DNA of 55,328 nt, taken from positions 1 to 55,328 of the IMG/VR virus record IMGVR_UViG_3300045303_000219. One strand, given 5' to 3'. A program made the position numbers and the translations under genes. The notes under the pieces were generated by a model. It was not told the DNA's origin. It saw nothing but the letters and a program-made list of their open reading frames with translations, and ran no database searches. Positions 7,400-21,770 of the stretch are shown here, piece by piece (the stretch's first letter is position 1; each line of letters opens with the position of its first letter). This DNA is from a virus.

Positions 7400-7463
7400 G
7401 CCGGACCTTCGCATGGAGTAGAAAGGCGCACAAGTGGAATTTTGCACTTTTTTTGATTTATTT
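7400..7463 (-). promoter_or_regulatory. Conserved leaderless-promoter module (copy A)
   Basis: Read on the minus strand: AAAATAAATCAAAAAAA tract, TTCCAC, TTGTGC (7433-7428), 16 bp, CGAAGG in the second-box position, 6 bp, then ATG. The second box is the weakest of the nine copies, but the spacing is exact. Confidence 0.6.
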
Positions 7464-7703
7464 TTAGGGCCGGTTTCCCGCCCGGGCGAGCGTGTGATTA
7501 TGCGCATCGCAAAACTCCTGCGCCTCCATGTGCGTGCGGAAGTTGGCGAGCGGCGTGCCGCTCACGTTGCGCTCGCTTTCGGCCTTCACCGCGTAGCCTT
7601 CGCGCCGGGTGCGGCGCCGCCGCCCGGTGGTCCACCAGCATACGTGCCACGGTTCCCGGGCGAAGCGCTCGCGCGCTCGCGCCCGGTTTGATTCGGCCCT
7701 CAT
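7464..7703 (-). CDS. Basic hypothetical protein (79 aa)
   Basis: ATG at 7703 overlaps the TGA of the DUF6011-like gene (ATGA). The first 35 residues are very basic with a WHVCWW patch. The second half (TPLANFRTHMEAQEFCDAHN) resembles a short domain in which a position-defining DAH helix follows a strand. Its TAA lies in the AT tract of the next promoter. Family unknown. Confidence 0.65.
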   Translation of the reverse strand: MRAESNRARARERFAREPWHVCWWTTGRRRRTRREGYAVKAESERNVSGTPLANFRTHMEAQEFCDAHNHTLARAGNRP

Positions 7704-8419
7704 GACACGCCCGGCTCGGGGCCGGTGTGCGCACACCCGGAATCGTCGACCCAATAATTGTGGCGCCCGTTTTGCTCGCGATATTCTTCGATGTAGCGTT
7801 CGGCCTCGCGGTCCTCGGCGAGTTCGAGGGCGCGCTTGGCGGTGTTCTGCACCTCGCGTTTTACGACCGCCTCCGCGGCCCGGGCCACTTCGGCGATCTC
7901 CGCGAAGGGGGGCATGGCGGGCTTGTGCCCGCATGCCGCCGCGGTGTGCCGGTGCGCGAAGTATTTGGCGCACACCGGGCCGATTGCACCGGCGACCGAT
8001 TTGGCCGCCTTGAGGTGCCGCCCGCACACGATGCACCGGGCGAACTTCGTCAGGAAGTCGTGGGCATCGGCAAGGTCCCAGCGATCGGTTTCGGTGAGTT
8101 TGTAGATCACCCCGGGCCGGTAAACCGCCTCAAAATCTACGACCGCGCCCGCCTCGGTCATGCGCGCCGGGGATTCAACGATCTCCTTCGCGTAGAACCG
8201 GGTTTTTTCGCGGTTGGGTTTCACCACGTAGATTTTGCCGTCTTTGCGGAACACGCCCATCTGGACCGTGGCCGCGGGCGCCGCCGCCGCTTGCGCGGTC
8301 TTCGGGCACTCTCCGACATGGCGCACACCGGCGCCGCGTTCCCATTCGCACTTCATGCCCGCGGGAATCACCCCGCCGCACTTCGTGCATTTGCCGCTGA
8401 ATTTTGCCGTGAGCGTCAT
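7700..8419 (-). CDS. DUF6011-like zinc-binding protein
   Basis: The start at 8419 sits on a TAATG junction with the previous gene. The 239-aa product has two cysteine centres: CTKCGG near residue 11 with a partner Cys around 38, and CIVCGRHLKAAKSVAGAIGP followed by VC near 127-149, which matches the DUF6011 pattern (CxxCGRxL...S...GIGPVC). Between them lies a beta-rich segment (GKIYVVKPNREKTRFYAKEI). The C-terminal third is a charged helix. This family is common in phages and has no known role. Confidence 0.75.
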   Translation of the reverse strand: MTLTAKFSGKCTKCGGVIPAGMKCEWERGAGVRHVGECPKTAQAAAAPAATVQMGVFRKDGKIYVVKPNREKTRFYAKEIVESPARMTEAGAVVDFEAVYRPGVIYKLTETDRWDLADAHDFLTKFARCIVCGRHLKAAKSVAGAIGPVCAKYFAHRHTAAACGHKPAMPPFAEIAEVARAAEAVVKREVQNTAKRALELAEDREAERYIEEYREQNGRHNYWVDDSGCAHTGPEPGVS

Positions 8420-8715
8420 TATACGATCTCCGCGTTGATGCCGTAGGTGGCGAGGTTCATTGTGACCTGCAGGGCCTCCCCGGCGGTGTTTGCGCGCTCC
8501 AGCTCCAGCCGGAACCGGGCGCCGTCTTCGGCGATGTTGGCGAGGGCGTTCGGTGTTTCGCTTTTGCTCACGAAGTGAATCGTGCCCTTGCCGTATCGGT
8601 AAAGGTAGAAGCGATTTCCGAGCCGGTCGGTCAACGTGATCGTCCATGCGCGCTCGATGTCATTGCGGGGCGCTTTGCCCCCGCCCGTTACTGCTTCGTT
8701 TTTCGTTTTCGTCAT
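8419..8715 (-). CDS. First gene of operon; MTKTK-TGGGKAPR protein (98 aa)
   Basis: It begins at the ATG of promoter copy B. The N-terminus repeats the TGGGKAPR motif of the 7399 gene. After this, residues 20-98 look like a compact alpha/beta domain (WTITLTDRLGNRFYLYRYGK and an amphipathic helix at LANIAEDGARFRLELERANT). It joins the following DUF6011-like gene by a TAATG overlap. Confidence 0.7.
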   Translation of the reverse strand: MTKTKNEAVTGGGKAPRNDIERAWTITLTDRLGNRFYLYRYGKGTIHFVSKSETPNALANIAEDGARFRLELERANTAGEALQVTMNLATYGINAEIV

Positions 8716-8786
8716 GCCCCCACAATAGCACCAGTGGAAAGGTGCACAAGTGGAAAATCGCAGATTTTTGAAGATTTATTTCGGCC
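8716..8786 (-). promoter_or_regulatory. Conserved leaderless-promoter module (copy B)
   Basis: Minus-strand order: AAATAAATCTTCAAAAATC, TTCCAC, TTGTGC (8749-8744), 16 bp, TATTGT (8727-8722), 6 bp, ATG at 8715. The TTCCACTTGTGC block is followed at 14 bp by TTCCACTGGTGC, a direct repeat that could be an operator. Confidence 0.75.
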
Positions 8787-9227
8787 CTAATTCCGGGCCG
8801 GAAACCGGACGATTTCGATTTCGGCGAAGCCGCCGCGCACCTTCTCGTTCACGACCGCGACCCCGTCGTAGCCGAGCGCCTGCATGGCCGCCACGGCTTC
8901 TGCCGCCCGGGCCGCCCGCGGTGTGAAATCACCGGCGCCGCCGCCGGGCTCGTTTGCGATCCCGCTGATGGTGCCGAAGCGATCGGCGATTTGCATGTAG
9001 GCTTCCTCGACCGTTAACACCAGCGGATTTGAAAGGCGAAGGCACATCCGAAAGGGGACCCCGTATTGGTCCGCCCGGATGAAGGATGTCGAGTAATACG
9101 TGCCGCACCCGAAGTCGCCCGGGTCGCTGGGCCGCCCCTCGGCTTTGATCCCGCGCCAGACCGGCATGCCGTGGGCCAAGCGTGCCCGTAGGCGTGCGAT
9201 TGTTCCGGCGGGTAGGCAGGTCGTCAC
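8787..9227 (-). CDS. ADP-ribosyltransferase-like protein with R-S-E signature
   Basis: The GTG start at 9227 overlaps the TGA of the previous gene, giving 146 aa. The sequence carries the three marks of arginine-specific ARTs in order: VWRG with Arg 25, YYSTS (44-48, the S-T-S motif) and AEIEIV with Glu 136 and Glu 138 (ExE). A CLRLSNPLVL strand and GYDGV (119-123) resemble ART domains of phage and plasmid polyvalent proteins. ARTs transfer ADP-ribose from NAD to proteins or nucleic acids; T4 Alt and ModA/ModB are phage examples that modify host machinery. The target here is unknown. Confidence 0.72.
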   Translation of the reverse strand: MTTCLPAGTIARLRARLAHGMPVWRGIKAEGRPSDPGDFGCGTYYSTSFIRADQYGVPFRMCLRLSNPLVLTVEEAYMQIADRFGTISGIANEPGGGAGDFTPRAARAAEAVAAMQALGYDGVAVVNEKVRGGFAEIEIVRFPARN

Positions 9228-9424
9228 GGCGCTGCCTTCATTGCGACATAAAAGCAGCGTCCGCGGTAGCCGCCTTGGACCACCTCCCATTCGCTCCCAA
9301 GTTCTGCTTGTTTAGTTTGGGCCGCTGCCCGGTTGGCATAGGCGAGCGTGATCAATCCGTGCGTGCTTTTTTGCGCCAGAACCACTGCGCCGTTGTCGAG
9401 GTTGCATGTGAGGGGCGCGCTCAT
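9224..9424 (-). CDS. Small hypothetical protein (66 aa)
   Basis: ATG at 9424 overlaps the TGA of the leader gene (ATGA) and its own TGA overlaps the GTG of the ART gene (GTGA). The peptide has a beta-like start (CNLDNGAVVLAQKSTHG), an Ala-rich helix and a beta end (EWEVVQGGYRGRCFYVAM). No family was recognised; a role next to the ART is only suggested by coupling. Confidence 0.65.
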   Translation of the reverse strand: MSAPLTCNLDNGAVVLAQKSTHGLITLAYANRAAAQTKQAELGSEWEVVQGGYRGRCFYVAMKAAP

Positions 9425-9540
9425 TCGTCGTCCTGCTCGGAGGCCGTGGAGGTGTCTTCCGGGTAAAAGGTGATCGTGATGAAGCGCCCTTTTACGGGGC
9501 ACCACCGGGTCTCGGTTTTCAGTTCGGTTTCGTTCGTCAT
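9421..9540 (-). CDS. Leaderless first gene of ART operon (39 aa)
   Basis: The frame starts at the ATG of promoter copy C with Met-Thr-Asn-Glu and ends with a strongly acidic tail (EDTSTASEQDDE). A central RWCPVKGRFITITFYP looks like a beta hairpin. It overlaps the next gene by ATGA, so ribosomes starting here can feed the downstream cistrons. Confidence 0.6.
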   Translation of the reverse strand: MTNETELKTETRWCPVKGRFITITFYPEDTSTASEQDDE

Positions 9541-9599
9541 GCCGGACAATAGCACGCATGGAAAAGCGCACAAGTGGAAAAGTGAAGATTTCTGAAGAT
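9541..9599 (-). promoter_or_regulatory. Conserved leaderless-promoter module (copy C)
   Basis: Minus strand: AAATAAATCTTCAGAAATC, TTCCAC, TTGTGC (9573-9568), 16 bp, TATTGT (9551-9546), 5 bp, ATG at 9540. The stop codon of the preceding gene (TAA at 9602-9600) lies inside the AT tract. Confidence 0.75.
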
Positions 9600-9854
9600 T
9601 TATTTCGGGCCGGAAATTGCCCGGATTCCGAGCGCGGCCCGGACCAGCGGGTGCCCTAGTGCGTGCCCGGTGCTGCCGTAAGTGCCGAGGCAGCGCTTGT
9701 AGGTTTTCCCGCCGGACGTCCATTCCTGCCAAACGTAGAGGCGCCCGTTTTTCATTACTTTGGCCAGCACCCGGGCACCGCCCGGCGCCGTGCCGAGCAC
9801 GCGAGGCCCCGGCGCGTTTTGGGTTGTGTCCTGCCGGGGCCTCCTCGTGTTCAT
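9600..9854 (-). CDS. Basic hypothetical protein (84 aa)
   Basis: ATG at 9854 directly follows the TAA of the previous gene. Residues 25-65 read as antiparallel strands (ARVLAKVMKNGRLYVWQEWT, KTYKRCLGTYG), as in small DNA- or RNA-binding folds; the protein is basic. No family was recognised. Confidence 0.65.
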   Translation of the reverse strand: MNTRRPRQDTTQNAPGPRVLGTAPGGARVLAKVMKNGRLYVWQEWTSGGKTYKRCLGTYGSTGHALGHPLVRAALGIRAISGPK

Positions 9855-10262
9855 TTAAGCGTTCGCGGCCTTCGCGGCACGCTTAGCCTCGCGCTGTTCG
9901 CGCAGGTAGGTTTTGATGGCGTTCAGCCGGATGTGGCTGCCTTGCGGGCCGACCGCCTTCGCATCCTCAAGGGTAGCGTAGGTGGGGGCCGGGGCCGCGG
10001 GGGCTTTGAGGGCGTCGCGGTGCCGCTTGCAAAGTTGCTGGCCGGTGATTTTGCTGATGCGCGCACCGCAGGAGTGGCACCCTTCAGCTTCGCAATATGC
10101 CCTGCCGTCGCCGCTCTTCTTACTTACCGGGGCCGCCGGTGCCGGGGCATCTTCTGCCGGGCATGTGCACTCGCGCTCGGGTGCCCCGCAAACCGGGCAA
10201 AAATCCCAGTCGTTTTCGAGGTAATCCAGCGCGCCGTTTTCGGTGTCAATTTCGTTCGTCAT
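9855..10262 (-). CDS. Cysteine-rich zinc protein (135 aa)
   Basis: It starts at the ATG of promoter copy D with Met-Thr-Asn-Glu. Two zinc-like clusters are visible: CPVCG...CTC (about 22-34) and C...CHSCG...C (about 57-80). The C-terminal part is a Lys/Arg/Ala-rich helix (REQREAKRAAKAANA). It may bind nucleic acid. Family unknown. Confidence 0.65.
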   Translation of the reverse strand: MTNEIDTENGALDYLENDWDFCPVCGAPERECTCPAEDAPAPAAPVSKKSGDGRAYCEAEGCHSCGARISKITGQQLCKRHRDALKAPAAPAPTYATLEDAKAVGPQGSHIRLNAIKTYLREQREAKRAAKAANA

Positions 10263-10320
10263 GCCCGGACAATACACCCGGGGCACAAGTGCGCAAGTGG
10301 AATTTCACACTTTTTTTAAT
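10263..10320 (-). promoter_or_regulatory. Conserved leaderless-promoter module (copy D)
   Basis: Minus strand: AAAAATAAATTAAAAAAAG, TTCCAC, TTGCGC (10296-10291), 16 bp, TATTGT (10274-10269), 6 bp, ATG at 10262. Confidence 0.75.
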
Positions 10321-10566
10321 TTATTTTTGACCGCCATTCCGGGGCGCCCGGACCCGCCACACCCGGTAACTTCCGTTCCCGGCGGTGCGCGAGATCAGCT
10401 TGATCCGCATGGCCCGGCCCGCGACGAAGGCCGCGTTCCGCTGCTGTGTAGTGAGCACGATCGAATCCCCGGTTCGCATTTGCCGGAGGATGTGCGCCCA
10501 GCCGCCGCCGCGTCGCGTCGCCTTCGGTGTGACCGGGACGTTGTGTTCGATTTCGATTTGATTCAT
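10321..10566 (-). CDS. Small basic protein (81 aa)
   Basis: The ATG at 10566 gives a product opening MNQIEIEHNVPVTPKATRRG. The centre (MRTGDSIVLTTQQRNAAFVA then GRAMRIKLISRTAGNGSYRV) alternates strand and helix and resembles small single-domain proteins seen repeatedly in phage early regions. Its TAA lies in the AT tract of module D. Confidence 0.65.
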   Translation of the reverse strand: MNQIEIEHNVPVTPKATRRGGGWAHILRQMRTGDSIVLTTQQRNAAFVAGRAMRIKLISRTAGNGSYRVWRVRAPRNGGQK

Positions 10567-10605
10567 GCCCGCAGAAATACGGGAGACTTGCCGCATGTGA
10601 CAAGT
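10567..10605 (-). promoter_or_regulatory. Variant leaderless promoter
   Basis: The 39-bp gap holds TTGTCA, about 18 bp, TATTTC and then TGCGGGC before the ATG at 10566. It lacks the long AT tract of the nine main modules, but the ATG is again too close to the second box for a ribosome-binding site. Confidence 0.4.
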
Positions 10606-10857
10606 TTAATCTTTGACGTGTCTCGGCGCGCTTTCGTCGTCCGGGTCAAGGCCCACATCGATCATGGCGGCCCGGCGCCGGGTTTCGCGCCGTAGCCGGG
10701 CGACCCATGATTCAAAGGCCGCCAGCACCTCGGGCTCCAGCACGATCCGGTTTCGCGGGTCGTCCGGGTAGCCGTTCTCGGTCGTGAGCACGATGCGCCC
10801 GTCGACGTCGACGTCGGCATACACCGAATCGCCGAGGTAGATTTTCCGGGCGCTCAT
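10606..10857 (-). CDS. Hypothetical protein (83 aa)
   Basis: ATG at 10857 overlaps the TGA of the previous gene. The N-terminal half is beta (KIYLGDSVYADVDVDGRIVL) and the second half a charged helix (AAFESWVARLRRETRRRAAM). The alternating strand-helix layout and overall size are typical of small phage proteins of unknown role. Confidence 0.65.
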   Translation of the reverse strand: MSARKIYLGDSVYADVDVDGRIVLTTENGYPDDPRNRIVLEPEVLAAFESWVARLRRETRRRAAMIDVGLDPDDESAPRHVKD

Positions 10858-11033
10858 GTGCCGCCGCCCTTGTGTTTGATGTCGGCTTTTAGGGCGTCGA
10901 TTTTTGATTCGACGTCGCTTTGAATTTCCTCTAGCGCCTCCAGCGTGACCGCCGGGGAGACGCTCATGTCGCCGAATAGGTTATCGACCGCGTCCGTCAC
11001 GATCTTCTGTTTTGCCGCAATGCGTGGATTCAT
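10854..11033 (-). CDS. Small helical protein (59 aa)
   Basis: I take the ATG at 11033; an in-frame GTG at 11057 would add eight residues. The peptide is Lys/Asp/Glu-rich and probably one or two helices (SDVESKIDALKADIKHKG). It overlaps the next gene by ATGA. Confidence 0.55.
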   Translation of the reverse strand: MNPRIAAKQKIVTDAVDNLFGDMSVSPAVTLEALEEIQSDVESKIDALKADIKHKGGGT

Positions 11034-11096
11034 ATTTTTAATTCGAAATTTGCGCACCCGGGCGGGGGGTCCCGGGCGCGCCGTATTTCAAGCCGT

Positions 11097-12323
11097 TTAG
11101 CGCACCGCCGCCAGCACCATCGCTGGCTCCTTGATGATTTTGCCCGCCAGCGACTCAAGGTCCCCGGCATCATCCGGGTCGTCGGTGTCCTGCGCGAGGC
11201 GGCTCACCGCCTGCGCGAAACCGAAGCGCGTCGGATCGTAATCGCGGAGGTAGTAGGTCAGCAGGGCCTCCCGCTGTTCTTCATTCACCGCCCCGGAAGC
11301 GATCACATTGTCGATCGCGGCGCTCGGGCTTGTGAGCGTGTCGGCCTGCGCGGCCTTCGCCTTTGCGACCATCAGTTTGAACTTCTCGGGATCAAATGCG
11401 GCACGCACCGCATCCCGGGCTTTCAGCATGATGGCCTTCGATTCCGCAGAAATCGTCTCCTGCGAAAAGATGCCTTCATCCAGCCGATCGCCGAGGTGCA
11501 CCCGGCTCACGACCGTCTCCAGCGAGGCGACGTTGAAACACATCCCGAGCAAAAGCCCGATTCGGATGTGGAAGCCGCCGTGCCCGGTTTCGCTATTGAG
11601 CGCCGTGACGACCGGGTGAATCGTGCCCGGGCCGCCGGGCAGCTCCCCGCGTATGCGGGCGCCGAGGATCGTCTTGCCCATCAGCTCCTTGTTGCCTATA
11701 GCACCGGCAAACCAGCCGCCCTGCGGGCCGCTGCGCTGGGTGACGTCGATAACGTCCCACACCTGCTGCGTGGTGAATTTGATCCGCATTCGCTTGTCGC
11801 TCAGGTCGGCTTCGAAAACCTGCGCGTCCCGTTTCCGGGCTTCATCGAGGCAGGTGTAGGCGATGTCTTCATTATCGATCACCCGGTAGCCGTTCGACAG
11901 CCACGCGCGCACCTCATTGTCGAGGCACCGCACGAGGCGCTTTTTCGGATCGTCGGCATGCAGGCCGTTCACTAGGTCCGCGAGCCGCCCCGGGCGCTCG
12001 TTCATTAGTGCGTCGAAATACCTCGTCGGCATTGCCGGGGTGAGGCGTTCCGCGAGCTGGTGGTATGCCGAGCGCTTCAGCATCATCGGACCCTCGGGCA
12101 TCCACTCGAATGCTTGGGCCGTGGCCGGGATGATTTTAATCCCGCCGTTCGCTTCCACGGTGAGGTGCCGCACATCGGCGACAAAATCATTCCGTGATTC
12201 TCTTTGCCGGTCCAGTTCGGTCACGAGCTGCTCCAGCGTGCCGCGCCCCTTCCACGAATCGTTATGCTCGGCGATCGTCGTCGAGCCGTTTTCGTGTAGG
12301 GGGTTTCCGTCCATTATGTTCAT
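11097..12323 (-). CDS. DUF932-like protein
   Basis: The 408-aa product starts at 12323 behind a good AGGAG site 8-9 bases upstream, unlike the neighbouring leaderless starts. The N-terminal LEQLVTELDRQRESRNDFVA segment and the following YHQLAERLTPAMPTRYFDAL and WLSNGYRVIDNEDI segments fit the DUF932/phage-plasmid family of about 300-400 aa. The C-terminal third is helical. Members are abundant in phages and plasmids; their biochemical role is not settled. It lies alone between two operons. Confidence 0.65.
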   Translation of the reverse strand: MNIMDGNPLHENGSTTIAEHNDSWKGRGTLEQLVTELDRQRESRNDFVADVRHLTVEANGGIKIIPATAQAFEWMPEGPMMLKRSAYHQLAERLTPAMPTRYFDALMNERPGRLADLVNGLHADDPKKRLVRCLDNEVRAWLSNGYRVIDNEDIAYTCLDEARKRDAQVFEADLSDKRMRIKFTTQQVWDVIDVTQRSGPQGGWFAGAIGNKELMGKTILGARIRGELPGGPGTIHPVVTALNSETGHGGFHIRIGLLLGMCFNVASLETVVSRVHLGDRLDEGIFSQETISAESKAIMLKARDAVRAAFDPEKFKLMVAKAKAAQADTLTSPSAAIDNVIASGAVNEEQREALLTYYLRDYDPTRFGFAQAVSRLAQDTDDPDDAGDLESLAGKIIKEPAMVLAAVR

Positions 12324-12335
12324 TTTTTCTTACTC

Positions 12336-12593
12336 CTATTTTGCGCGGGTGTTTTCGCCGGTTCCCGCATCTCCGGTTTGGGCATTCCCGCGGCCCGGGC
12401 CGTGTGACCCGAAACCGCGAGCGCCCGAAATTGAGGGAGGCGGTCGGGTTGCGCCGTCGCGCACGGTGTCCCCACCGCCCCGCCGCCTCTGATGTTCTTG
12501 CCATCGCGCCCTGCATGCGGGCGCCGCGCACGTCACCTCGTCGGGCATGCGCAGCGCCGGGCAGTAAATGCAGAACCTTTTACGCCCCGACAT
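12336..12593 (-). CDS. Zinc-finger protein with disordered tail (85 aa)
   Basis: ATG at 12593 lies within the end of the previous gene (14-nt overlap). The first 35 residues hold CIYC...C...C (about 8-26), a compact zinc site resembling bacterial treble-clef motifs. The rest is rich in Gly, Arg, Pro and Thr and looks disordered. Confidence 0.55.
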   Translation of the reverse strand: MSGRKRFCIYCPALRMPDEVTCAAPACRARWQEHQRRRGGGDTVRDGATRPPPSISGARGFGSHGPGRGNAQTGDAGTGENTRAK

Positions 12594-12957
12594 AATTGTA
12601 ATAACCGAGGCTGCCGACTTCGATCTTGCCGCCGCGCACGTAGTGCACCTCGGACCCGCCACAGAAGAAATCCAGCGCTTCGCGGATCACCCGGGCCTCG
12701 TTGATCGTGCGCACCTGCACACGCTTGGTCGGCATCTTCCAGTTGGTCTTGTCGAATAGCGGGTTGGCGATCGCCATCTTCGCATCGCGCTCGGCGTTGT
12801 TGCGCTTCGCCATTTCGACGTGCGCTACGGCCTCGGCTTGCGACACACCCGAAAGGGCGGCGCCGTCGCCGATCACTTTGCCATCCCGAATCATCTGAAA
12901 GCAGGCGTTGAATGCCCCTTTCCCGTCGCTCATTATGAACCAGTTTTCGTTCGTCAT
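12580..12957 (-). CDS. Hypothetical protein (125 aa)
   Basis: It starts at the ATG of promoter copy E with Met-Thr-Asn-Glu. Mid-protein strands and helices (FIMSDGKGAFNACFQMIRDG then KVIGDGAALSGVSQAEAVAH) suggest a folded alpha/beta domain. The C-terminus ends in a beta motif (IEVGSLGYYNYVGA). Divergent from the methyltransferase gene. Confidence 0.65.
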   Translation of the reverse strand: MTNENWFIMSDGKGAFNACFQMIRDGKVIGDGAALSGVSQAEAVAHVEMAKRNNAERDAKMAIANPLFDKTNWKMPTKRVQVRTINEARVIREALDFFCGGSEVHYVRGGKIEVGSLGYYNYVGA

Positions 12958-13020
12958 GCGGGCACTTTCGCACATGTGGCAAATGGCACAAGTGATTTTT
13001 TAAACTATTTTTGCTGGCCT
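12958..13020 (-). promoter_or_regulatory. Conserved leaderless-promoter module (copy E), divergent
   Basis: Minus strand: AAAAATAGTTTAAAAAATC, TTGTGC (12991-12986), 16 bp, GAAAGT (12969-12964), 6 bp, ATG at 12957. The plus-strand methyltransferase begins 84 bp away, so this stretch may regulate both genes. Confidence 0.65.
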
Positions 13021-13041
13021 ATTTTGGCCCGGGGTGTTACG

Positions 13042-14204: not shown

Positions 14205-14674
14205 GTGGTGCCGTTACCGTTCCCAAGCTGCTTTGTTTTCCGATAGCGTGCAATAATGCGCTTGAGCAGGTCCACCTTCGCGGTCGCGATTTCCTCGCGG
14301 GCTTCGGCGGATTCCAGATACGACTCCAGCGCGGCCATGTCGCGCTCGGTGTAGTGCTTCACCATGACGATCCCGAGCACCCGGTGATGGCCGTCGGGGT
14401 CATAGAACGGGTAAGCCGGAATCCCGGCGCCCAGCAGGAGGTTCACCGCCCGCCACGCTTGGCCCCGGCAGTAAACGACCAAATCGTCCGTGACCGCCTT
14501 CTCGCCGTATTGCACCGTGGCGATGGCCTCGATGCTAACCAGCTTGCCCGGGTGCTTCGTGACCAGCGCTATTGTCACCGCGTCCCGGTAGGTGCCCGGC
14601 TCGACGCTAACCCAGCGGCCCTTGCGCCGCACCAGCGCGGTCCCGGCGGCCTCGATGATTTCCTCGCCGGTCAT
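14201..14674 (-). CDS. Hypothetical protein (157 aa)
   Basis: ATG at 14674 overlaps the TGA of the J-domain gene (ATGA). Predicted fold is alpha/beta with a helical C-terminal third (MAALESYLESAEAREEIATA, then a basic helix). A WVSVEPGTYRDAVTIALVTK stretch may be a beta core. No family was recognised. Confidence 0.65.
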   Translation of the reverse strand: MTGEEIIEAAGTALVRRKGRWVSVEPGTYRDAVTIALVTKHPGKLVSIEAIATVQYGEKAVTDDLVVYCRGQAWRAVNLLLGAGIPAYPFYDPDGHHRVLGIVMVKHYTERDMAALESYLESAEAREEIATAKVDLLKRIIARYRKTKQLGNGNGTT

Positions 14675-15228
14675 GCGGCCTCCTTTAGGTGATCGCGCAC
14701 CTTATTGAGCCGCTGCATTCCTTCGGACGTGCCGCCCTTGTCGGGGTGCATTTGCACGACCAGCACCTTGTAGCCGATATCGATCAGCTTTAGGGCCAGC
14801 TCCTCCTCTAGCTTTTGCTCCTTATCGATCCCGGCGACGTGCCGGGTAAAGGCCGGGGTGTCGAAATCCCGCAGCGTTTCGCGCACGTCGTGGGTCCAGT
14901 CCGGTGCGTGCCCGAATTTGCGCCGGTCGCCGCGAACCTGATTCATCGTGCTGAAATGCTCACCGTTCGCGGCCTTGTTTGCGGCCTTCATATATTGCCG
15001 GGCGGTGTCTTGCGTGAGGTGAAAGTTTCTCCTCAGCCACTCGCCCCAGCTAATCGCGTTGAGCTGCGATTTCGCTTCCAGCAGTTTTTGACCTGCCGCG
15101 ATGTAGTGTTGCATCCCGGCGTTTCGTGCCGCTTCGGCGCCGTCATGCAGGTCCTGCTTGATGAGCGGGACCAGCACCTTCAGCGGGCGGGCGACTTCTT
15201 GCGTTTGTTTTTTTTCCATTGTTTGCAT
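14671..15228 (-). CDS. DUF3102-like protein with a J-domain HPD motif
   Basis: Starts are ATG at 15228 or 15219. The N-terminal part (GQKLLEAKSQLNAISWGEWL then TARQYMKAANKAA) matches the DUF3102 pattern found in phages and plasmids. The C-terminal 40 residues contain YKVLVVQMHPDKGGTSEGMQ with the HPD tripeptide that lets J-proteins stimulate DnaK-type chaperones. A helix lies on each side of HPD as in a J domain, though the preceding helix is short. The likely role is recruitment of host DnaK, by analogy with T-antigen-type J-proteins; that is inference. Confidence 0.7.
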   Translation of the reverse strand: MQTMEKKQTQEVARPLKVLVPLIKQDLHDGAEAARNAGMQHYIAAGQKLLEAKSQLNAISWGEWLRRNFHLTQDTARQYMKAANKAANGEHFSTMNQVRGDRRKFGHAPDWTHDVRETLRDFDTPAFTRHVAGIDKEQKLEEELALKLIDIGYKVLVVQMHPDKGGTSEGMQRLNKVRDHLKEAA

Positions 15229-15239: not shown

Positions 15240-15275
15240 GGAGTTTGCCACCATTTCTACATTCGGGCAAACTCC
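15240..15275. repeat. 10-bp perfect inverted repeat upstream of the J-domain gene
   Basis: GGAGTTTGCC (15240-15249) pairs with GGCAAACTCC (15266-15275) across a 16-base loop. It lies between the stop of the secreted-protein gene and the J-domain gene start. On the plus strand it is followed by TTTTTGC, like a terminator, but no plus-strand gene ends here. An operator or mRNA hairpin is equally possible. Confidence 0.6.
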
Positions 15276-15281
15276 TTTTTG

Positions 15282-15566: not shown

Positions 15567-15715
15567 GGTTGGTGGGTTGTGTTTTCGTTTGTCCATATCG
15601 TGCCGCCGGGTAGCGACCGCCCCGTGGGGGCCGCGCCCGGCGGTATCGATAAAGAGTGCCCGCTCCCGGGGTCGTGCCCGCGCGGGCGGCGGTGCATGAC
15701 AAGAGGTGCCCCGGT

Positions 15716-15820
15716 TCACCATAAATTCAGCCATCGTTTACGTTCCGCGGCGGTCATGGGCCGCGTCCGTAGCACCCAGCCCCGGCGGGACCGGGCGAAA
15801 TAATGCCGGTAAAGTTTCAC
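15716..15820 (-). CDS. 34-aa basic microprotein
   Basis: GTG at 15820 overlaps the TGA of the preceding gene (GTGA). The peptide reads KLYRHYFARSRRGWVLRTRP then MTAAERKRWLNLW. The C-terminal MTAAERKRW pattern resembles the end of the 75-aa product at 17491-17718 (ALTAEECEHF), hinting at a shared small motif. Confidence 0.45.
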   Translation of the reverse strand: MKLYRHYFARSRRGWVLRTRPMTAAERKRWLNLW

Positions 15821-16305: not shown

Positions 16306-16487
16306 CGGGCCTCCTGACCGGCTTTGTAGGCCGCATCGAGTGCGGCACGTATGCCCCACACCGCAAGGTCGTGGAAATCCAGCGAATCGCTGTTCCGGGT
16401 TTCTAGCGTCTCAAGGTCGAGGTGCTGCTGGGCGATGCGGGCGAGTTTTTCGGCCCGCGCCTTCGCTTGTTCGTGAATGTTTTTCAT
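16302..16487 (-). CDS. DUF6900-like small protein (61 aa)
   Basis: The sequence IAQQHLDLETLETRNSDSLD followed by FHDLAVWGIRAALDAAYKAG matches the short DUF6900 pattern common in phages and plasmids. The ATG at 16487 follows a GGGAGG ribosome site formed by the last codons of the previous gene. Function is unknown for the whole family. Confidence 0.75.
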   Translation of the reverse strand: MKNIHEQAKARAEKLARIAQQHLDLETLETRNSDSLDFHDLAVWGIRAALDAAYKAGQEAR

Positions 16488-16492
16488 CGGTA

Positions 16493-16714
16493 TTAAACCT
16501 CCCAGCGGTAGCCGCCGCCCAGTTCGATTGCGGTGCGCAGGTCGACGACCGCGAAGTTATCTTCCGGGCCGTCTACCACCGCGAAAATGTCGCGGTTGCC
16601 GACCGAGAGGCGGGCTTGGTTGCGCATGCGCATCCAGCTCGACGCTTCACCCTCGTCCGAGAAGAATTTGATGTAGGTTTCACTTTTCGCTGCTGCTTTA
16701 TTCGTTTTTGTCAT
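16493..16714 (-). CDS. WMR/DLRTAI-domain protein, paralogue of 18197-18580
   Basis: Starts at the ATG of module F (Met-Thr-Lys). The 73-aa product shares a domain with the protein at 18197-18580: EGEASSWMRMRN, then FAVVDLRTAIELGGGYRWEV against EGAAMSWMRSMN and WAVCDLRTAINAGAKYTWEV. The final TGGGAGGTTTAATA is identical in both genes and supplies the ribosome site of the next gene. Both are first genes of their operons. The domain is not known to me. Confidence 0.7.
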   Translation of the reverse strand: MTKTNKAAAKSETYIKFFSDEGEASSWMRMRNQARLSVGNRDIFAVVDGPEDNFAVVDLRTAIELGGGYRWEV

Positions 16715-16766
16715 GCCGGACAATAGCACCCGTGGAACCGTGCGCAAGTGGAAAAGTGAAAATAAA
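16715..16766 (-). promoter_or_regulatory. Conserved leaderless-promoter module (copy F)
   Basis: Minus strand: AAAAATATTTTGATTTATTT, TTCCAC variant, TTGCGC (16747-16742), 16 bp, TATTGT (16725-16720), 5 bp, ATG at 16714. Confidence 0.75.
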
Positions 16767-17099
16767 TCAAAATATTTTTCGGCCCCTTTTTCGGGGGTTT
16801 GGCCGGTCCTGCGGGATGCCCATTTCCCGGCACCGGGCGGTCCATGCCGCGTCGGTCGGTTCACGTAGGAAACCGATCCCGGCGAGAAACTTCAGCTGGG
16901 CGTCCCGGGCGCCGCGGCATAGGCGCTCCTTCTTGCCGGTCGGGCCAGTGAAGGGGCTCAGGCCGGTGTTATGGCAAATCCGGGATTCATGCCCGAGTGC
17001 CCGCTCCTCAAGGTAGCCGCGCAGGCCCGCGTGCGGGCTTCCCGGCCTCCACGGGCACGTAGCGCACATGGTGCGGTTTAACGGCCTCCTGTCGCTCAT
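16767..17099 (-). CDS. CATCPWRPG-type zinc protein (DUF6283-like)
   Basis: The 110-aa product has CATCPWRPG near residues 12-20 and further His and Cys at about 42-43, 61 and 89, as in the phage DUF6283 family (CxxCPWR then CH). The start overlaps the stop of the zinc-ribbon gene upstream (ATGA). The family has no assigned function. Confidence 0.7.
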   Translation of the reverse strand: MSDRRPLNRTMCATCPWRPGSPHAGLRGYLEERALGHESRICHNTGLSPFTGPTGKKERLCRGARDAQLKFLAGIGFLREPTDAAWTARCREMGIPQDRPNPRKRGRKIF

Positions 17100-17494
17100 G
17101 GCGCCGCCTCCCGGCGGGCCGCCCGATATTCATCGAGGGCGCGCCGCCAGCGTGCCCGGGCGCGCCGGATCGCCTCCTCTTGCCGGTCCCGTTCCAGCAC
17201 CCGAAGCTTCCATTCCTGATGCCAGCTTTCGGCGATGCCCCATAGGCGCTTCACCTCCTCGTTCTGCTTGCCCGCGTGTAGCCGCCGCAGCCAGCGGTCG
17301 GCCCGGCGGGTGTAGGCGCCCAGCGCCCGGGTCTTGAAATCCGGGGCCTCCTGCCCGCATGCCGGGCAGACCGCGTAGGCCCGGGCGCCGAACAATTTGG
17401 CCCGCACCGCGGTCTCCTGCCGCTCGGCGTCGTCGACGTGCTGCTTGCACACCGCGCACTCGAAAAGTTGCGCCTGCCGTAGCGCCAGCGTCAC
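17096..17494 (-). CDS. Zinc-ribbon protein with coiled tail (132 aa)
   Basis: GTG at 17494 overlaps the previous stop (GTGA). CAVC (about 14-17) and CPAC (about 43-46) form a zinc ribbon. Residues 55-130 are a long Arg/Glu/Trp-rich helix (YTRRADRWLRRLHAGKQNEE, VLERDRQEEAIRRARARWRR). This layout suits a nucleic-acid- or protein-binding adaptor. Confidence 0.65.
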   Translation of the reverse strand: MTLALRQAQLFECAVCKQHVDDAERQETAVRAKLFGARAYAVCPACGQEAPDFKTRALGAYTRRADRWLRRLHAGKQNEEVKRLWGIAESWHQEWKLRVLERDRQEEAIRRARARWRRALDEYRAARREAAP

Positions 17495-17718
17495 CGGGCC
17501 TCCAGTGAAAAGTGTTCGCACTCCTCGGCGGTAAGCGCCCGGTCGGTAGCGATTACGCCGTAGCGGTGCACGCTCGGCGGGATGTCGGGCCGCCGGTGCG
17601 CAAGGTCGGGCGGCGCTTCGCAATAGCGCCAGTCAATGCCCGGCGGTAGCGTGCACGCCGACGCGGGCCGCAGCAGCGGTTTGTAGCGGTGCAGGCCGAA
17701 TAGAAGGGCGTCGTTCAT
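17491..17718 (-). CDS. Hypothetical protein (75 aa)
   Basis: ATG at 17718 directly follows the TAA of the upstream gene; its TGA overlaps the next GTG. The C-terminal half (VHRYGVIATDRALTAEECEH) resembles the end of the microprotein at 15716-15820. No family was recognised. Confidence 0.6.
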   Translation of the reverse strand: MNDALLFGLHRYKPLLRPASACTLPPGIDWRYCEAPPDLAHRRPDIPPSVHRYGVIATDRALTAEECEHFSLEAR

Positions 17719-18024
17719 TTAGTCGTTCCAGATTTTGACGGTCATGCCGAAGGCACTTTTGTCGACGCGCCCGGTGCGCCGGTCGATCGACCGATACACC
17801 CAGCCCACGATTTCATCTTCCCGCATGATGTGCCCGCAGGCCACGAAGGTGACCAGCTCGCCGGTGCGCATGCTGACAAGGGTGAAGCCCTCATCGCATG
17901 CGTCGGGCCACACCTGATGAAGGCGTAGGCCCTCCGGGCCGAAGTCGCTGGCCTCGGCGGACCCGGTGTTGCCGATCCATGTTAACAAGTTGGCGAGGAT
18001 CGGTGTGCCGTGCATGAACCTCAT
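17719..18024 (-). CDS. Hypothetical protein (101 aa)
   Basis: ATG at 18024 overlaps the previous TGA (ATGA). The protein is beta-rich in its second half (FTLVSMRTGELVTFVACGHI, VGWVYRSIDRRTGRVDKSAF). Short frames of this size fill the whole operon; no family was recognised. Confidence 0.6.
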   Translation of the reverse strand: MRFMHGTPILANLLTWIGNTGSAEASDFGPEGLRLHQVWPDACDEGFTLVSMRTGELVTFVACGHIMREDEIVGWVYRSIDRRTGRVDKSAFGMTVKIWND

Positions 18025-18191
18025 CGGGCACCTCCCCCGCGGTAGCGGTTCAGATATTCGGCGAGGGTTTCGCCGGGCTTGCGTGCCGGGCCGAAAGGCG
18101 CCTGCACGTTGTAGTTTTTCGGCGCCGGGAGGTGCTGCTTGAGCACCGCGATCAGGTCGACCGTTTGCGTTTCGTTCGTGTCGTTCGTCAT
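18021..18191 (-). CDS. Small hypothetical protein (56 aa)
   Basis: Starts Met-Thr-Asn-Asp at 18191 and follows a GGGAGG site made by the end codons of the paralogue gene upstream. The peptide has a helix (TVDLIAVLKQHLPAP) and an NRYRGGGAR end. Overlaps the next gene by ATGA. Confidence 0.6.
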   Translation of the reverse strand: MTNDTNETQTVDLIAVLKQHLPAPKNYNVQAPFGPARKPGETLAEYLNRYRGGGAR

Positions 18192-18196
18192 GGCTA

Positions 18197-18580
18197 TTAA
18201 ACCTCCCAAGTGTATTTCGCCCCGGCGTTGATTGCGGTGCGCAGGTCGCACACCGCCCAGCGGTCACCGGCCTGCACTACGACGCGAAGGTCGGCGCGGC
18301 CCCGGCGGGTGTTAAAACTTTTCGTGCCGTTCATCGAGCGCATCCAGCTCATGGCCGCGCCCTCGGTCTTGTGATACGTGATCTTGGAGGTGATCGGTGC
18401 GACCGCCATGCGGGCGTTGAAATCCGCCGCGATTTTTTCGGCGTCGGCTTTGCTATCCATCCACTCGCTGGGCATGCCGCCCGGAAAAACGACGAGGTGT
18501 TTGTGCCAGTAGGGGTCGATCGAAGTATGAACGCGGGCAAGCGCCCCGTTCCCGTTGCTGCTATTATTTGCTTTTGTCAT
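18197..18580 (-). CDS. WMR/DLRTAI-domain protein with extra N-terminal domain
   Basis: Starts at the ATG of module G (Met-Thr-Lys). It is 127 aa; residues 1-75 carry an additional alpha/beta segment (HKHLVVFPGGMPSEWMDSKA) and residues 80-127 repeat the domain of the 73-aa product at 16493-16714. The repeated 3' end suggests duplication of a cassette including the downstream ribosome site. Confidence 0.7.
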   Translation of the reverse strand: MTKANNSSNGNGALARVHTSIDPYWHKHLVVFPGGMPSEWMDSKADAEKIAADFNARMAVAPITSKITYHKTEGAAMSWMRSMNGTKSFNTRRGRADLRVVVQAGDRWAVCDLRTAINAGAKYTWEV

Positions 18581-18637
18581 GCCCCACAATGCCACAGGTG
18601 TAATAGTGTGCAAGTCGAAAATCAAAGATTTTTTGAT
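18581..18637 (-). promoter_or_regulatory. Conserved leaderless-promoter module (copy G)
   Basis: Minus strand: AAAAATAAATCAAAAAATC, TTTGATTTTCGAC, TTGCAC (18613-18608), 16 bp, CATTGT (18591-18586), 5 bp, ATG at 18580. Confidence 0.7.
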
Positions 18638-18859
18638 TTATTTTTCGGCCCGGGTTTTGGCCCATGTTCCCGCCCGCACGTAGCCGCCCCGGACCCGGCA
18701 GTATTTGATCGCGCCCCGGGCCTTCAGCCGGTCGATGGCGTTGTGCTCGGCAATTGTGAGAACGCCGACCGGGTGCCACGCACCGAAGCGCGCAATGTTC
18801 CCGAGCACCCAATCCTCGTTTGCCCGCATGGCCGCCGCGATCCGTTCGTGCGCCTTCAT
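18638..18859 (-). CDS. Winged-helix-like small protein (73 aa)
   Basis: ATG at 18859 overlaps the TGA of the DUF3850-like gene. The pattern [40 protein letters not shown] and [11 protein letters not shown] suggests a winged-helix fold (helix, helix, beta wing), so DNA binding is plausible. Its TAA lies in the AT tract of module G. Confidence 0.6.
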
Positions 18860-19116
18860 GTAGCACCCCACTTTTTAGGCGGCACGAAATCCGGCTCGAT
18901 AGCCATGACCACGAAGCCGTCCTTTTGCTCAAAGTCGGTGATGTAAGTAATGCGCCGCGCAAGCCATCTGCCGGTGTAGCGCCCGCCCTCCCACTCGCGC
19001 AGCATGATCCGGTCCTTCACTTTGAAATCCCGGTCGTTGCGCCGTATCTCAAACGTCTTTCGGAACGCCGCCACGGCGGCAAAAAACTCCGGGGCCGACT
19101 TCAGCTCGTGGTTCAC
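18856..19116 (-). CDS. DUF3850-like (ASCH/PUA-fold) protein
   Basis: The 86-aa sequence follows the DUF3850 pattern: an [20 protein letters not shown] helix, then [18 protein letters not shown], a [15 protein letters not shown] strand and a final [15 protein letters not shown]-like domains usually bind RNA or modified nucleotides. Phages often carry them in early operons. Confidence 0.8.
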
Positions 19117-19352
19117 GTAGCCGCCTCCTTGCCCGCCGCGGTGATGCGGTAAACGCAGCCCCAGCTCGCGTGCTTTAAATACTCAACGAGGCCCCGACGC
19201 TCCAGCGCGATCGCGGTCGCCCGCGCGTGCACGGTGAATTTGCGCCCGTTGATGTTCCCGGTGTAGCCGTGCCGCCCGTAGCCGATCGCCAAGATCGTGC
19301 CGTCCGGGGACCGGGCCGCCTCGTGTAAAAGTGCCTCCTGTGCCGCGTTCAT
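19113..19352 (-). CDS. Winged-helix-like small protein (79 aa)
   Basis: ATG at 19352 overlaps the stop of the zinc protein before it. The sequence has a helix ([19 protein letters not shown]), then an [20 protein letters not shown] helix-and-strand unit typical of winged helices. A resemblance to the product at 18638-18859 (gene order helix, helix, wing) is weak but visible. Confidence 0.55.
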
Positions 19353-19507
19353 GTAGCCTTGCATTTGCCGCCATCGGGGCGTTTCACGCGGCGCGATACG
19401 CAGTGACCGCAAATGCGCTGCCCGTTTAGGAAATACCATCGCCGCTTTTTCCATTTGCCGCACAAGGGACAGGCGAGCGGCGGGCGCTGGGTGATGCCGG
19501 GCTTCAT
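19349..19507 (-). CDS. Zinc-ribbon microprotein (52 aa)
   Basis: CPLCG (13-17) and CGHC (33-36) bracket a basic WKKRRWYFLNGQRI loop, a classic small zinc ribbon. ATGA overlaps join it to both neighbours. Likely nucleic-acid-binding or adaptor. Confidence 0.65.
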   Translation of the reverse strand: MKPGITQRPPLACPLCGKWKKRRWYFLNGQRICGHCVSRRVKRPDGGKCKAT

Positions 19508-19740
19508 GTGGCGACCCCCGGGTGCACCATGATGGGCACGCACGCTTGGCAATACGCCTCCCGCTCCCCCCATTTGACCGGGGCGCCGCACCGCGGGCAC
19601 TCCCCGGTTCTGCACCACGCACCGGCGGCCACGGCATCGGTGCCGAATTCGACCACCTTCCGGCGGCCTTTGTAGCCGTTCCAATTGCCCCAAATATTCT
19701 GGTGGATGCGCCGGGTGTTGGGGATGCGGCGCCTTCTCAC
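19504..19740 (-). CDS. Zinc-ribbon protein (78 aa)
   Basis: GTG at 19740 overlaps the previous stop (GTGA). A C-terminal ribbon CPRCG...CQAC (about 49-68) follows a basic N-terminus. It overlaps the next zinc-ribbon gene by ATGA, so two different ribbons are translated in tandem. Confidence 0.6.
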   Translation of the reverse strand: MRRRRIPNTRRIHQNIWGNWNGYKGRRKVVEFGTDAVAAGAWCRTGECPRCGAPVKWGEREAYCQACVPIMVHPGVAT

Positions 19741-20093
19741 GAAAGGTCCTCCAGTAGGATGTAGCGGGCGCCCGCCTTCGCGGCCAGCTCGTAACCTTCG
19801 TGTTCCGAAAAATCCTCCCGGGGCCGGGCATAGTAGAAAATCCCGTTCGCCCGGCAGTAGGCTTTGAAGGCCTCGACCATGCTCACCGGGCTCACGTAGA
19901 AGTTGGCCGCTTGAAATTGCGGCGGCAGGTCCTCATCCCGGATCGGCGTGATCTGCGGTGCCGCATTCATGCGGGCCGCCATCTGGCGCGCCCGGGCCTC
20001 GGTGATGTTTTCGGCGATGGGCCGTGCGCCCTTGCGCACGACCGCCCATGCCGGGCCGTATTGAACCGCGATGTAATCGTAGGCGCCGCTCAT
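19737..20093 (-). CDS. Hypothetical protein (118 aa)
   Basis: ATG at 20093 overlaps the TGA of the upstream gene. The first 45 residues (YDYIAVQYGPAWAVVRKGAR, ITEARARQMAARMNAA) read as a strand-helix unit common in small phage proteins. The C-terminal part is alpha/beta with a FYYARPREDFSEHEGYELAA stretch. No family was recognised. Confidence 0.65.
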   Translation of the reverse strand: MSGAYDYIAVQYGPAWAVVRKGARPIAENITEARARQMAARMNAAPQITPIRDEDLPPQFQAANFYVSPVSMVEAFKAYCRANGIFYYARPREDFSEHEGYELAAKAGARYILLEDLS

Positions 20094-20506
20094 GCCGCAC
20101 CCCCGATCGGGACGAGGCGAATGATCCGGTCCCAGTTTCCGGCGGGCCGCGGGGCCGCATTGTGGAAGGTCACGAAGCCGCGGGGGTCGGGCATGTCGAA
20201 CTTCGAAACGACGCTGCGCTCGTGAATCGCCGCTACGGTGTAGGGCCGCGTGGCGACCGCGCGAAGCATCAGGGTCTCGCCGTTCGCCAGCGTGCCGACG
20301 AACTGAAAGCCCTTTTTGACCGCGGTGCGCTCGACGCTAATAAGGTCGGCGGCGAAGGCCGCGGACCCGGCGATTTGCGCTTGGCGCTCGGCCTCCAGCC
20401 GTGCCGCGTGCTCGATGCACGTTAGGCAGGGGTCGGCGGGATTCACCGTGCCGCAGATGTCGCACGCTACGAGGCCGTCGAGATTGATGTAGGTTTTGCC
20501 GCTCAT
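20090..20506 (-). CDS. Zinc-motif hypothetical protein (138 aa)
   Basis: ATG at 20506 overlaps the previous TGA. A CDICG...CLTC motif (about 14-30) forms a zinc ribbon at the N-terminus; the rest is alpha/beta with a VGTLANGETLMLRAVATRPY core. It may bind nucleic acid. Family unknown. Confidence 0.65.
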   Translation of the reverse strand: MSGKTYINLDGLVACDICGTVNPADPCLTCIEHAARLEAERQAQIAGSAAFAADLISVERTAVKKGFQFVGTLANGETLMLRAVATRPYTVAAIHERSVVSKFDMPDPRGFVTFHNAAPRPAGNWDRIIRLVPIGGAA

Positions 20507-20730
20507 TGCGCACCCCCTGCCATCTTGCGAAGGCGGCGGCGGATGTCGCGGCGCTCGTTGCGGCGGTGTCTCAAGCCGGTCGTGTAACTGCGGCGGGCCA
20601 TCCATCCTGCAGGCCAGTGATCCCAGCTTCCGGTCGGAGGTGCTACCGTGACCGTTTTTTCGTATGCCAAACTGGTCGCGAGTTTCTCGCGCAATTCGGC
20701 TTCATTCATGTCCCATATTGGTTTTGTCAT
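20503..20730 (-). CDS. First gene of operon H (75 aa)
   Basis: Starts Met-Thr-Lys at 20730. The N-terminal helix (MNEAELREKLATSLAYEKTV) is followed by a Trp/Arg-rich end (DHWPAGWMARRS then RHRRNERRDIRRRLRK), which is strongly basic. It overlaps the next gene by ATGA. Confidence 0.6.
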   Translation of the reverse strand: MTKPIWDMNEAELREKLATSLAYEKTVTVAPPTGSWDHWPAGWMARRSYTTGLRHRRNERRDIRRRLRKMAGGAQ

Positions 20731-20782
20731 GCCGTATAATCGCACAAGTAGAATAGTGCGCAAGTGGAATTTGTAAGATTTC
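20731..20782 (-). promoter_or_regulatory. Conserved leaderless-promoter module (copy H)
   Basis: Minus strand: AAAAATAGTTTGAGAAATC, TTCCAC, TTGCGC (20763-20758), 16 bp, GATTAT (20741-20736), 5 bp, ATG at 20730. GATTAT is a good sigma-70 -10 match. Confidence 0.75.
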
Positions 20783-21082
20783 TCAAACTATTTTTCGCGC
20801 CCTTTTCGGGGCCTCCAGCCGGGCATCGAATAGCACCTCGGCGTCGTCGCCACGGCAGTAGATTGTGATGGCGCGCCCGTCCGGTGCCCGGCCCTTCAGC
20901 CATGCCCGCAGGTCGCGCATGCCGACCAGCTCGCCCATCCATGCGCCGTGCCGGTCCTGATCCCACGGCTCGCCGAAATCCGAACAATCGTTCTGCACGT
21001 AGTGCCAGAACACTTCGCACGGCTCGCCGGGCTTGCGCACGTAGGCGACCGCATCCTTCAGCCGGTCATTGAGGCCGCTCAT
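20783..21082 (-). CDS. Hypothetical protein (99 aa)
   Basis: ATG at 21082 overlaps the previous TGA. The 99-aa alpha/beta product includes CEVFWHYVQNDCSDFGEPWD and MRDLRAWLKGRAPDGRAITI. The last residues enter the AT tract of module H. No family was recognised. Confidence 0.65.
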   Translation of the reverse strand: MSGLNDRLKDAVAYVRKPGEPCEVFWHYVQNDCSDFGEPWDQDRHGAWMGELVGMRDLRAWLKGRAPDGRAITIYCRGDDAEVLFDARLEAPKRARKIV

Positions 21083-21285
21083 TGCCCGGCCTCCACGTCG
21101 ATCGCCCAATCGTAGACCGCCCGGTAGTGCCGGAAATGCTCGACCGTGCACTCCCACCGGCGGCTTGCCGGGAGGCCGTAAATGTCCTGCACGCCGCCCT
21201 CGGCGCACCGATAAACCTCGCCGCGGATCAGCCAGAACTCCCACCCGGCGCCCTTTGCGATGATGCGTGCCGGTGCGGCGGTCAT
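21079..21285 (-). CDS. Hypothetical protein (68 aa)
   Basis: ATG at 21285 overlaps the previous TGA. Short beta-rich segments (GWEFWLIRGEVYRCAEGG then RRWECTVEHFRHYRAVYDWA) suggest a small folded domain. Both ends are coupled by ATGA overlaps. Confidence 0.6.
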   Translation of the reverse strand: MTAAPARIIAKGAGWEFWLIRGEVYRCAEGGVQDIYGLPASRRWECTVEHFRHYRAVYDWAIDVEAGQ

Positions 21286-21575
21286 GCCGCACCCCCGCCG
21301 TTAAGGTCCGCCGTGGTCAGCCATCCGACCGTCGCCGCGGTGCGCGGTGCGCACTTCGCCGGGTTGGCAAAGTAGCGCTGGCCCACACCGCCCTGCTGGA
21401 CCCACCGGGCGCCGTCCCACCGCTGCCACGGAATGATCCGCACTAGCAGGCCGCGCTCGGCGTCGATTTGCTCGACGCGAACGACCGCGCCGAAGTTTAA
21501 AACGATGTCGCCCACTTCGATGGGCCGGGCGACTTGGCCTTTATCAGCTCGCGCTGTCATTTGTGCGTTTTTCAT
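21282..21575 (-). CDS. Hypothetical protein (97 aa), PUA-like beta core
   Basis: ATG at 21575 follows an AAGAG site in the end of the previous gene; an in-frame ATG five codons on is an alternative. The VARPIEVGDIVLNFGAVVRV and VRIIPWQRWDGARW strands look like a small beta barrel. No family was recognised. Confidence 0.6.
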   Translation of the reverse strand: MKNAQMTARADKGQVARPIEVGDIVLNFGAVVRVEQIDAERGLLVRIIPWQRWDGARWVQQGGVGQRYFANPAKCAPRTAATVGWLTTADLNGGGAA

Positions 21576-21582
21576 TTTTCTC

Positions 21583-21702
21583 TTAGCCGTGCAGAAAGGT
21601 GTGCAGTAGGTGTAGGAAGTGAATCGCATCCTCGATCACATGGTGGTGGTGGTGCGCGTGTGCGATCGCCTTGTGGGCGGTTACTAGGATTCGGTTTGTC
21701 AT
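21583..21702 (-). CDS. Histidine-rich 39-aa microprotein, leaderless
   Basis: ATG at 21702 is the first codon after module I and begins Met-Thr-Asn. The peptide contains AHAHHHHHV and then IHFLHLLHTFLHG, giving ten His residues in 39, on what is probably one amphipathic helix. It could bind metal ions or act mainly as a translated leader for the next gene, whose start lies 7 bp beyond its TAA. Confidence 0.55.
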   Translation of the reverse strand: MTNRILVTAHKAIAHAHHHHHVIEDAIHFLHLLHTFLHG

Positions 21703-21770
21703 GCTCACACTTTCGCACGTTTCTACAAGTGCGCAAGTGGAAATCTAAAGATTTCTTAAAATAGTTTTTG
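21703..21770 (-). promoter_or_regulatory. Conserved leaderless-promoter module (copy I)
   Basis: Minus strand: AAAAACTATTTTAAGAAATC, TTTAGATTTCCAC, TTGCGC (21736-21731), 16 bp, GAAAGT (21714-21709), 6 bp, ATG at 21702. The second box matches copy E. Confidence 0.7.

Follow-up and report, generated by a model that had tools for sequence, protein, structure and literature searches.

The subject of this analysis is a short sequence module that occurs nine times on the minus strand, between positions 7397 and 21770, of IMG/VR record IMGVR_UViG_3300045303_000219, a 55,328 bp stretch of DNA that we refer to as the window. In each copy an A-rich tract is followed by TTGYRC, 16 bp (17 bp in one copy), a second box that resembles an extended -10 element, 5-6 bp and the start sequence ATGACRAAM. 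We consider it very likely that these modules are lineage-specific extended -10 promoters, read by a host sigma factor, from which the first gene in each early or accessory operon is transcribed as a leaderless mRNA. The window derives from a tailed phage, with recognisable genes for a portal, head protease, major head protein and tape measure as well as DnaB-like helicase, RecT-like and exonuclease genes. The region of the minus strand that carries the modules consists of small genes, mostly without known function.

An initial annotation had placed nine promoter copies in gaps of this region, and all nine were found on the minus strand when the sequence was read and aligned at those gaps. The modules, each with the open reading frame (ORF) that it heads and the first residues of the product, are as follows.

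7397-7467, minus strand: module 1, A-rich tract upstream of TTGTGC (7433-7428), 17 bp, GAAGGT (7410-7405), 5 bp, ATG at 7399; heads ORF 7169-7399 (MTKTKSS).
8713-8783, minus strand: module 2, TTGTGC at 8749, 16 bp, TATTGT, 6 bp, ATG at 8715; heads ORF 8419-8715 (MTKTKNE), the next gene (7700-8419) having GGAG.
9538-9607, minus strand: module 3, TTGTGC at 9573, 16 bp, TATTGT, 5 bp, ATG at 9540; heads ORF 9421-9540 (MTNETE).
10260-10330, minus strand: module 4, TTGCGC at 10296, 16 bp, TATTGT, 6 bp, ATG at 10262; heads ORF 9855-10262 (MTNEID).
12955-13025, minus strand: module 5, TTGTGC at 12991, 16 bp, GAAAGT, 6 bp, ATG at 12957; heads ORF 12580-12957 (MTNENW).
16712-16781, minus strand: module 6, TTGCGC at 16747, 16 bp, TATTGT, 5 bp, ATG at 16714; heads ORF 16493-16714 (MTKTNK).
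18578-18647, minus strand: module 7, TTGCAC at 18613, 16 bp, CATTGT, 5 bp, ATG at 18580; heads ORF 18197-18580 (MTKANN).
20728-20797, minus strand: module 8, TTGCGC at 20763, 16 bp, GATTAT, 5 bp, ATG at 20730; heads 75-aa ORF 20503-20730 (MTKPIW).
21700-21770, minus strand: module 9, TTGCGC at 21736, 16 bp, GAAAGT, 6 bp, ATG at 21702; heads ORF 21583-21702 (MTNRIL).

The first box is TTGTGC in four copies, TTGCGC in four and TTGCAC in one, as the initial annotation had described. Its spacing of exactly 16 bp and its second hexamers hold for eight copies (TATTGT four times, GAAAGT twice, GATTAT and CATTGT once each), but the copy at 7400, for which it gave CGAAGG, fits better as TTGTGC-17 bp-GAAGGT-5 bp-ATG. 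With this realignment the A at position 2 and the T at position 6 of the second box are present in nine of nine copies rather than eight. The distance of 5-6 bp from second box to ATG and the Met-Thr-Lys or Met-Thr-Asn start apply to all nine. Near-invariant columns of the alignment include AA near -32, TTG, the terminal C of the first box, A2 and T6 in the second box, and ATGAC. TGn, the extended -10 position, directly precedes nearly all second boxes and is shifted by one base in the copy at 10263. Among the first genes, ORFs 7169-7399 and 8419-8715 have an N-terminal stretch in common and ORFs 16493-16714 and 18197-18580 are approximately 41% alike over 70 aa, while no similarity was detected among the remaining module-headed first genes of the window. 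Since most first genes show no detected similarity, the repeated unit is the module and not the gene.

The relaxed expression TTGYRC-N16/17-NANNNT-N5/6-ATG matches the window 10 times, counting overlapping readings, while 200 dinucleotide shuffles of the window gave a mean of 0.31 matches and a maximum of 2. Including TGn leaves 7 matches in the window, against 0.01 in dinucleotide shuffles. Strict sigma-70 and terminator scans returned nothing above shuffles. GC-rich repeats before the A-tract were considered as intrinsic terminators and are hairpin-like, but A follows them rather than T and they are not claimed as such.

A near-identity search gave no near-identical match to the window among isolate phages. 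Relatives were gathered from portal matches at 63-99% identity, with more module-bearing contigs reached through the module pattern and through a GHKL-like protein described below, and the contigs read whole or nearly whole included G005, G006, G007, G008, G013, G014, G016, G018-G020, G023 and G025-G029. A position weight matrix (PWM) without an ATG term found seven modules in G005, four in G006 and three in G008, and others in G013, G020, G025, G026, G027 and G029. Approximately 50 modules were found in relatives outside the near-identical G005, with the architecture kept and the sequence diverged; one from G020, aaaaaaagttgaaaaatctttcatttttgcacTTGCACACTTTTCTACCTGTGCGATCTTctacacATGACAACGACA, is an example of a diverged module with unchanged geometry. 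Over 1.14 Mb the ATG-free scan gave 44 sites at a score of at least 22, compared with one in reversed sequence. Outside G005, the first ATG was 5-7 bp away at 33 of 37 such sites, against 3.8% for random positions, a figure biased by the choice of training sites with an ATG nearby. The test on held-out genomes is less affected: in G025, G026, G027 and G029, each first recovered through one site or one gene, ATG lies 5-7 bp after the -10 box in 17 of 20 modules, which were detected with no ATG requirement. A retrained model at a score of at least 17 found an ATG 4-8 bp away together with an ORF at 58 of 78 sites, whereas none of 15 control sites had one. Most of the 51 modules had served to train the models, so that their percentages are descriptive. 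The motif search in related phages that the initial annotation had suggested recovers a conserved geometry with an ATG distance of 5-7 bp.

In a portal tree the module-bearing phages are scattered over both main branches, a pattern that would fit early regions having been gained, lost or exchanged. G007, G014, G016, G018 and G019 are without modules; some contigs are fragments and, because these are incomplete, absence from them is not evidence. In the module-lacking relatives a de novo search for 8-mers before ATGs found no module; in G007 it gave words that are Shine-Dalgarno (SD)-like (GAAAGGAA). The pattern also matched many lake contigs (L123 and others), where it falls in one repeated locus with a tiny ORF or none, and these matches were set aside as chance.

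Our best reading of the boxes and their spacing is that the modules are extended -10 promoters of the sigma-70/sigma-A type, presumably read by host RNA polymerase. T occupies position 6 of the second box in 51 of 51 modules and A position 2 in 42, the two -10 positions at which sigma region 2 is most selective, and GTG lies upstream of the box in at least 49. The boxes are 16 bp apart in 42 modules and 17 bp apart in nine. TTG is present in all modules as a requirement of the scan; in eight of them the first slot is TTGACA or TTGACT. Such variants, seen at the same 16-bp spacing in G008, G013, G027, G029 and L019, identify the slot as a -35 box of the sigma-70 type.

A discriminator of 5-6 bp would be expected to place the transcription start on or beside the A of the ATG, and the mRNA of the first gene would then be leaderless. 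The base before the ATG is a pyrimidine at 48 of 51 module starts compared with 40 of 70 other window genes, and a pyrimidine before this A is as for a YR initiator. An SD core is found at one of 51 module starts but at 28 of 70 other window genes (Fisher p 2e-7), and the conserved boxes take up the sequence immediately before the ATG, in agreement with the initial annotation that there is no room for a ribosome site. Codons 2-5 are 60% A in the window modules and 31% A in other genes, and in several relatives they read ACAACGACA or ACAACAACA. The first 40 nt of module-headed genes are also less structured (mean -3.4 versus -6.8 kcal/mol, p 0.02). CA repeats that follow the start codon are a known enhancer of leaderless translation (PMC9031893). 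The first residues differ between genomes, with Met-Thr-Thr and Met-Asn or Met-Lys found beside Met-Thr-Lys and Met-Thr-Asn, so the constraint on the first codons that had been noted in all nine window copies looks like one on A-rich nucleotides and not a peptide signal. All the sequence tests open to us favour the family of leaderless promoters originally proposed, through the fixed ATG distance, A2/T6 with TG, the exchange of the first box for TTGACA or TTGACT in relatives, the pyrimidine-A step at the ATG and the lack of SD sequences. The description of the operons as accessory is inferred from gene content, from which we also assume their early timing.

Orthologous genes switch start type between phages. 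Window gene 20090-20506 is internal to its operon, starts MSGKTY and has GGGGGT upstream; in G005 the preceding gene is missing and the orthologue (G005:29945) is joined directly to the counterpart of module 8 and starts MTKTY. The DUF6011 gene (window 7700-8419) follows GGAG in the window and the SD-like gaaaggaaac in G016, and is module-headed in G020, G025, G026, G013 and G027. In both G026 and G027 a module heads the counterpart of a GHKL-like gene (window 5492-6928). Where orthologues of module-headed genes are without the module they are operon-internal or lie behind SD-like sequences. The GHKL-like gene, on the minus strand, encodes a 478-aa protein with a weak match to GHKL ATPases (below cut-off) and an HEFGHH motif, and its relatives occur both among these phages and in LR745208, a metagenomic phage of 485 kb.

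In the mechanism that we propose, host RNA polymerase with a primary factor of the sigma-70/sigma-A type would read each module. TTGYRC (TTGACA or TTGACT in some relatives) would act as the -35 box and (G)TGn with NAnnnT as the extended -10, with the A-rich tract as an upstream region that is UP-element-like or curved, while the discriminator would set the transcription start at or beside the A of the ATG. Translation of the operon's first gene would then use an A-rich mRNA that has no leader, and that of later genes SD or coupled starts. The module recurs, start codon and first codons included, before different early or accessory operons across this environmental phage group. We are more doubtful whether promoter, ATG and A/CA-rich codons form a transplantable cassette that, by landing ahead of any gene, turns SD-led genes leaderless and puts the whole early regulon under leaderless initiation, possibly co-regulated by a phage protein acting at the spacer.

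Several observations, besides the choice of training sites mentioned above, weigh against the promoter assignment. Position 1 of the -10 box is T in just 14 of 51 modules, the usual -35 box agrees with TTGACA in TTG alone, and a scan for the E. coli consensus TTGACA/TATAAT (at least 9 of 12 bases) recovered none of the nine modules. The hexamers are therefore individually weak, although a 9/12 match to the E. coli consensus is a criterion of strength and does not define the class. The spacer and first box also conserve bases beyond the needs of sigma-70 (CGCAC, TTTTCTAC, TTGTGC), so another binding protein may be involved, and a phage regulator bound in the conserved spacer is possible. Taken further, these extra bases would suit a module that mainly binds a phage repressor or activator at the beginnings of genes, like stoperators, with promoter activity secondary or elsewhere. 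The consensus does hold an imperfect inverted repeat (GCGCAC-N-GTGCG) and a 16-bp direct repeat (TTCCACTTGYGC), and many module-bearing relatives have a small gene of ribbon-helix-helix-like type, whose Pfam match is weak and below cut-off. However, within-site covariation of the dyad arms was not above that of shuffled sites (p 0.18), that of the direct repeat exceeded shuffled sites only weakly (p 0.024), the TTGACA and TTGACT variants drop the left arm yet keep the spacing and the ATG distance, and an operator would not need a fixed distance from -10 to ATG or the Y-1/A+1 step. We regard a family of operators as unlikely.

The weakness of the -10 boxes by E. coli standards could also mean that the box is not the -10 or that transcription starts elsewhere, giving ordinary short or long leaders with weak or non-SD translation. 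This seems highly improbable given an SD core at a single module, conserved boxes immediately upstream of the ATG and an ATG distance that is constant across diverged modules. We also give very little weight to a start-associated translational element like SAS in mycobacteriophages of cluster K, or to paralogous duplication of gene starts. An ATG within 3-7 bp, multiplicity, location at non-structural genes and conserved first codons all resemble SAS (PMC3203893), but SAS (GGGATAGGAGCCC) contains an SD-like AGGAG that the module is without, and no similar 13-mer was found in the nine window gaps. Gene duplication is disfavoured because the first genes are mostly unrelated.

Leaderless promoters of the kind we propose have parallels in known systems. 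Leaderless genes with an adjacent -10 motif (TANNNT) occur in Deinococcus-Thermus, Actinobacteria and others (PMC3160421, PMC12340547), and in Deinococcus-Thermus a -10 motif adjoining the ORF drives them, with a -35 box 17 bp upstream boosting expression (PMC12340547). The phage modules share with these genes a -10-like box, its A and T conserved, that lies a few bp from the start codon, the lack of an SD and, as far as the sequence indicates, a transcript that begins at or close to the start codon. The Deinococcus genes are mostly without a classical -35 box, whereas the phage modules combine -35, fixed 16-17 bp spacer, extended -10 TG, A-tract and A-rich codons in one multi-copy unit with SD-led genes downstream. 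Middle and late promoters of Thermus phage phiYS40 are of the extended -10 class, and the middle and late transcripts of phiYS40 and P23-45 are leaderless. The middle and late promoters of P23-45 belong to the same class and are read by host sigma-A (PMC7403470), but they depend less on the -35 box, as gp39 displaces sigma region 4, while the phage modules keep the -35 slot strongly and no phage sigma-remodeller was identified in the module-bearing phage. Cluster K SAS and ESAS are likewise multi-copy elements 3-7 bp before the ATG of non-structural genes and conserved by gene family (PMC3203893, PMC12699233); SAS has a length of 13 bp and an SD-like core, ESAS consists of an inverted repeat of 17 bp, and neither has been described with -35/-10 spacing. 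The natural leaderless phage mRNA of lambda cI (PMC9031893) comes from a single regulated promoter and not from a repeated family.

In the open-licence literature we found no description of a repeated, mobile-looking phage module of -35, spacer, extended -10, ATG and A-rich codons, and while leaderless genes themselves are already known, a phage-wide repeated set of leaderless promoters appears to be undescribed. To our knowledge leaderless translation, common in some bacteria, has rarely been seen as an organised phage strategy. Each genome in this lineage of environmental (soil) phages would carry roughly 4-9 leaderless promoters. Orthologues with a predicted leaderless start in one phage, and an SD-led or operon-internal one in a second, provide natural pairs for testing leaderless starts. 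Gene callers that rely on SD sequences can mis-start or miss such genes, and an extended -10 box 5-7 bp before ATG offers a sequence rule for finding them.

Outside the nine modules, two overlapping divergent starts lie at 28281-28328.

28279-28315, minus strand: TTGACA (28315-28310), 16 bp, TCAAGT (28293-28288), 6 bp, GTG at 28281; heads ORF 27796-28281.
28290-28328, plus strand: TTGACC (28290-28295), 17 bp, CAAGCT (28313-28318), 7 bp, GTG at 28326.

The minus-strand start was read from the sequence and was not recovered by the PWM. The ORF behind the plus-strand start is ribbon-helix-helix-like and precedes recT, and relatives of this gene keep GTGTCAAGCT (with a TCAAGCT box) 8-10 bp before ATG. 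Both starts are probably leaderless with GTG. The pair includes an inverted repeat, CTTGAC...GTCAAG, and looks like a control point between the left and right operons.

A portal search of genomes for the host gave only relatives at 35-45% identity (Firmicutes, Proteobacteria and others) and was uninformative, as were protein matches to isolate phages. Elsewhere in the window, the gap upstream of the module operons (22895-22970) contains a strong inverted repeat, CGCTGGTCCGAAAATAGGG ... CCCTATTTTCGGATCAGCG. At 15240-15275 on the minus strand a 10-bp inverted repeat, GGAGTTTGCC...GGCAAACTCC, overlaps the promoter-like pair TTGCCC-17-CAAACT ahead of gene 14671-15219, and is a possible operator. 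The C-terminal 70 or so residues of the major head protein (49278-50654, minus strand) match families whose annotation is endonuclease VII or unknown, and are possibly an appended domain. Two collagen-like proteins with G-x-y repeats and a common N-terminus, MAWQPKGNIKGP, are encoded at 36144-37584 on the minus strand.

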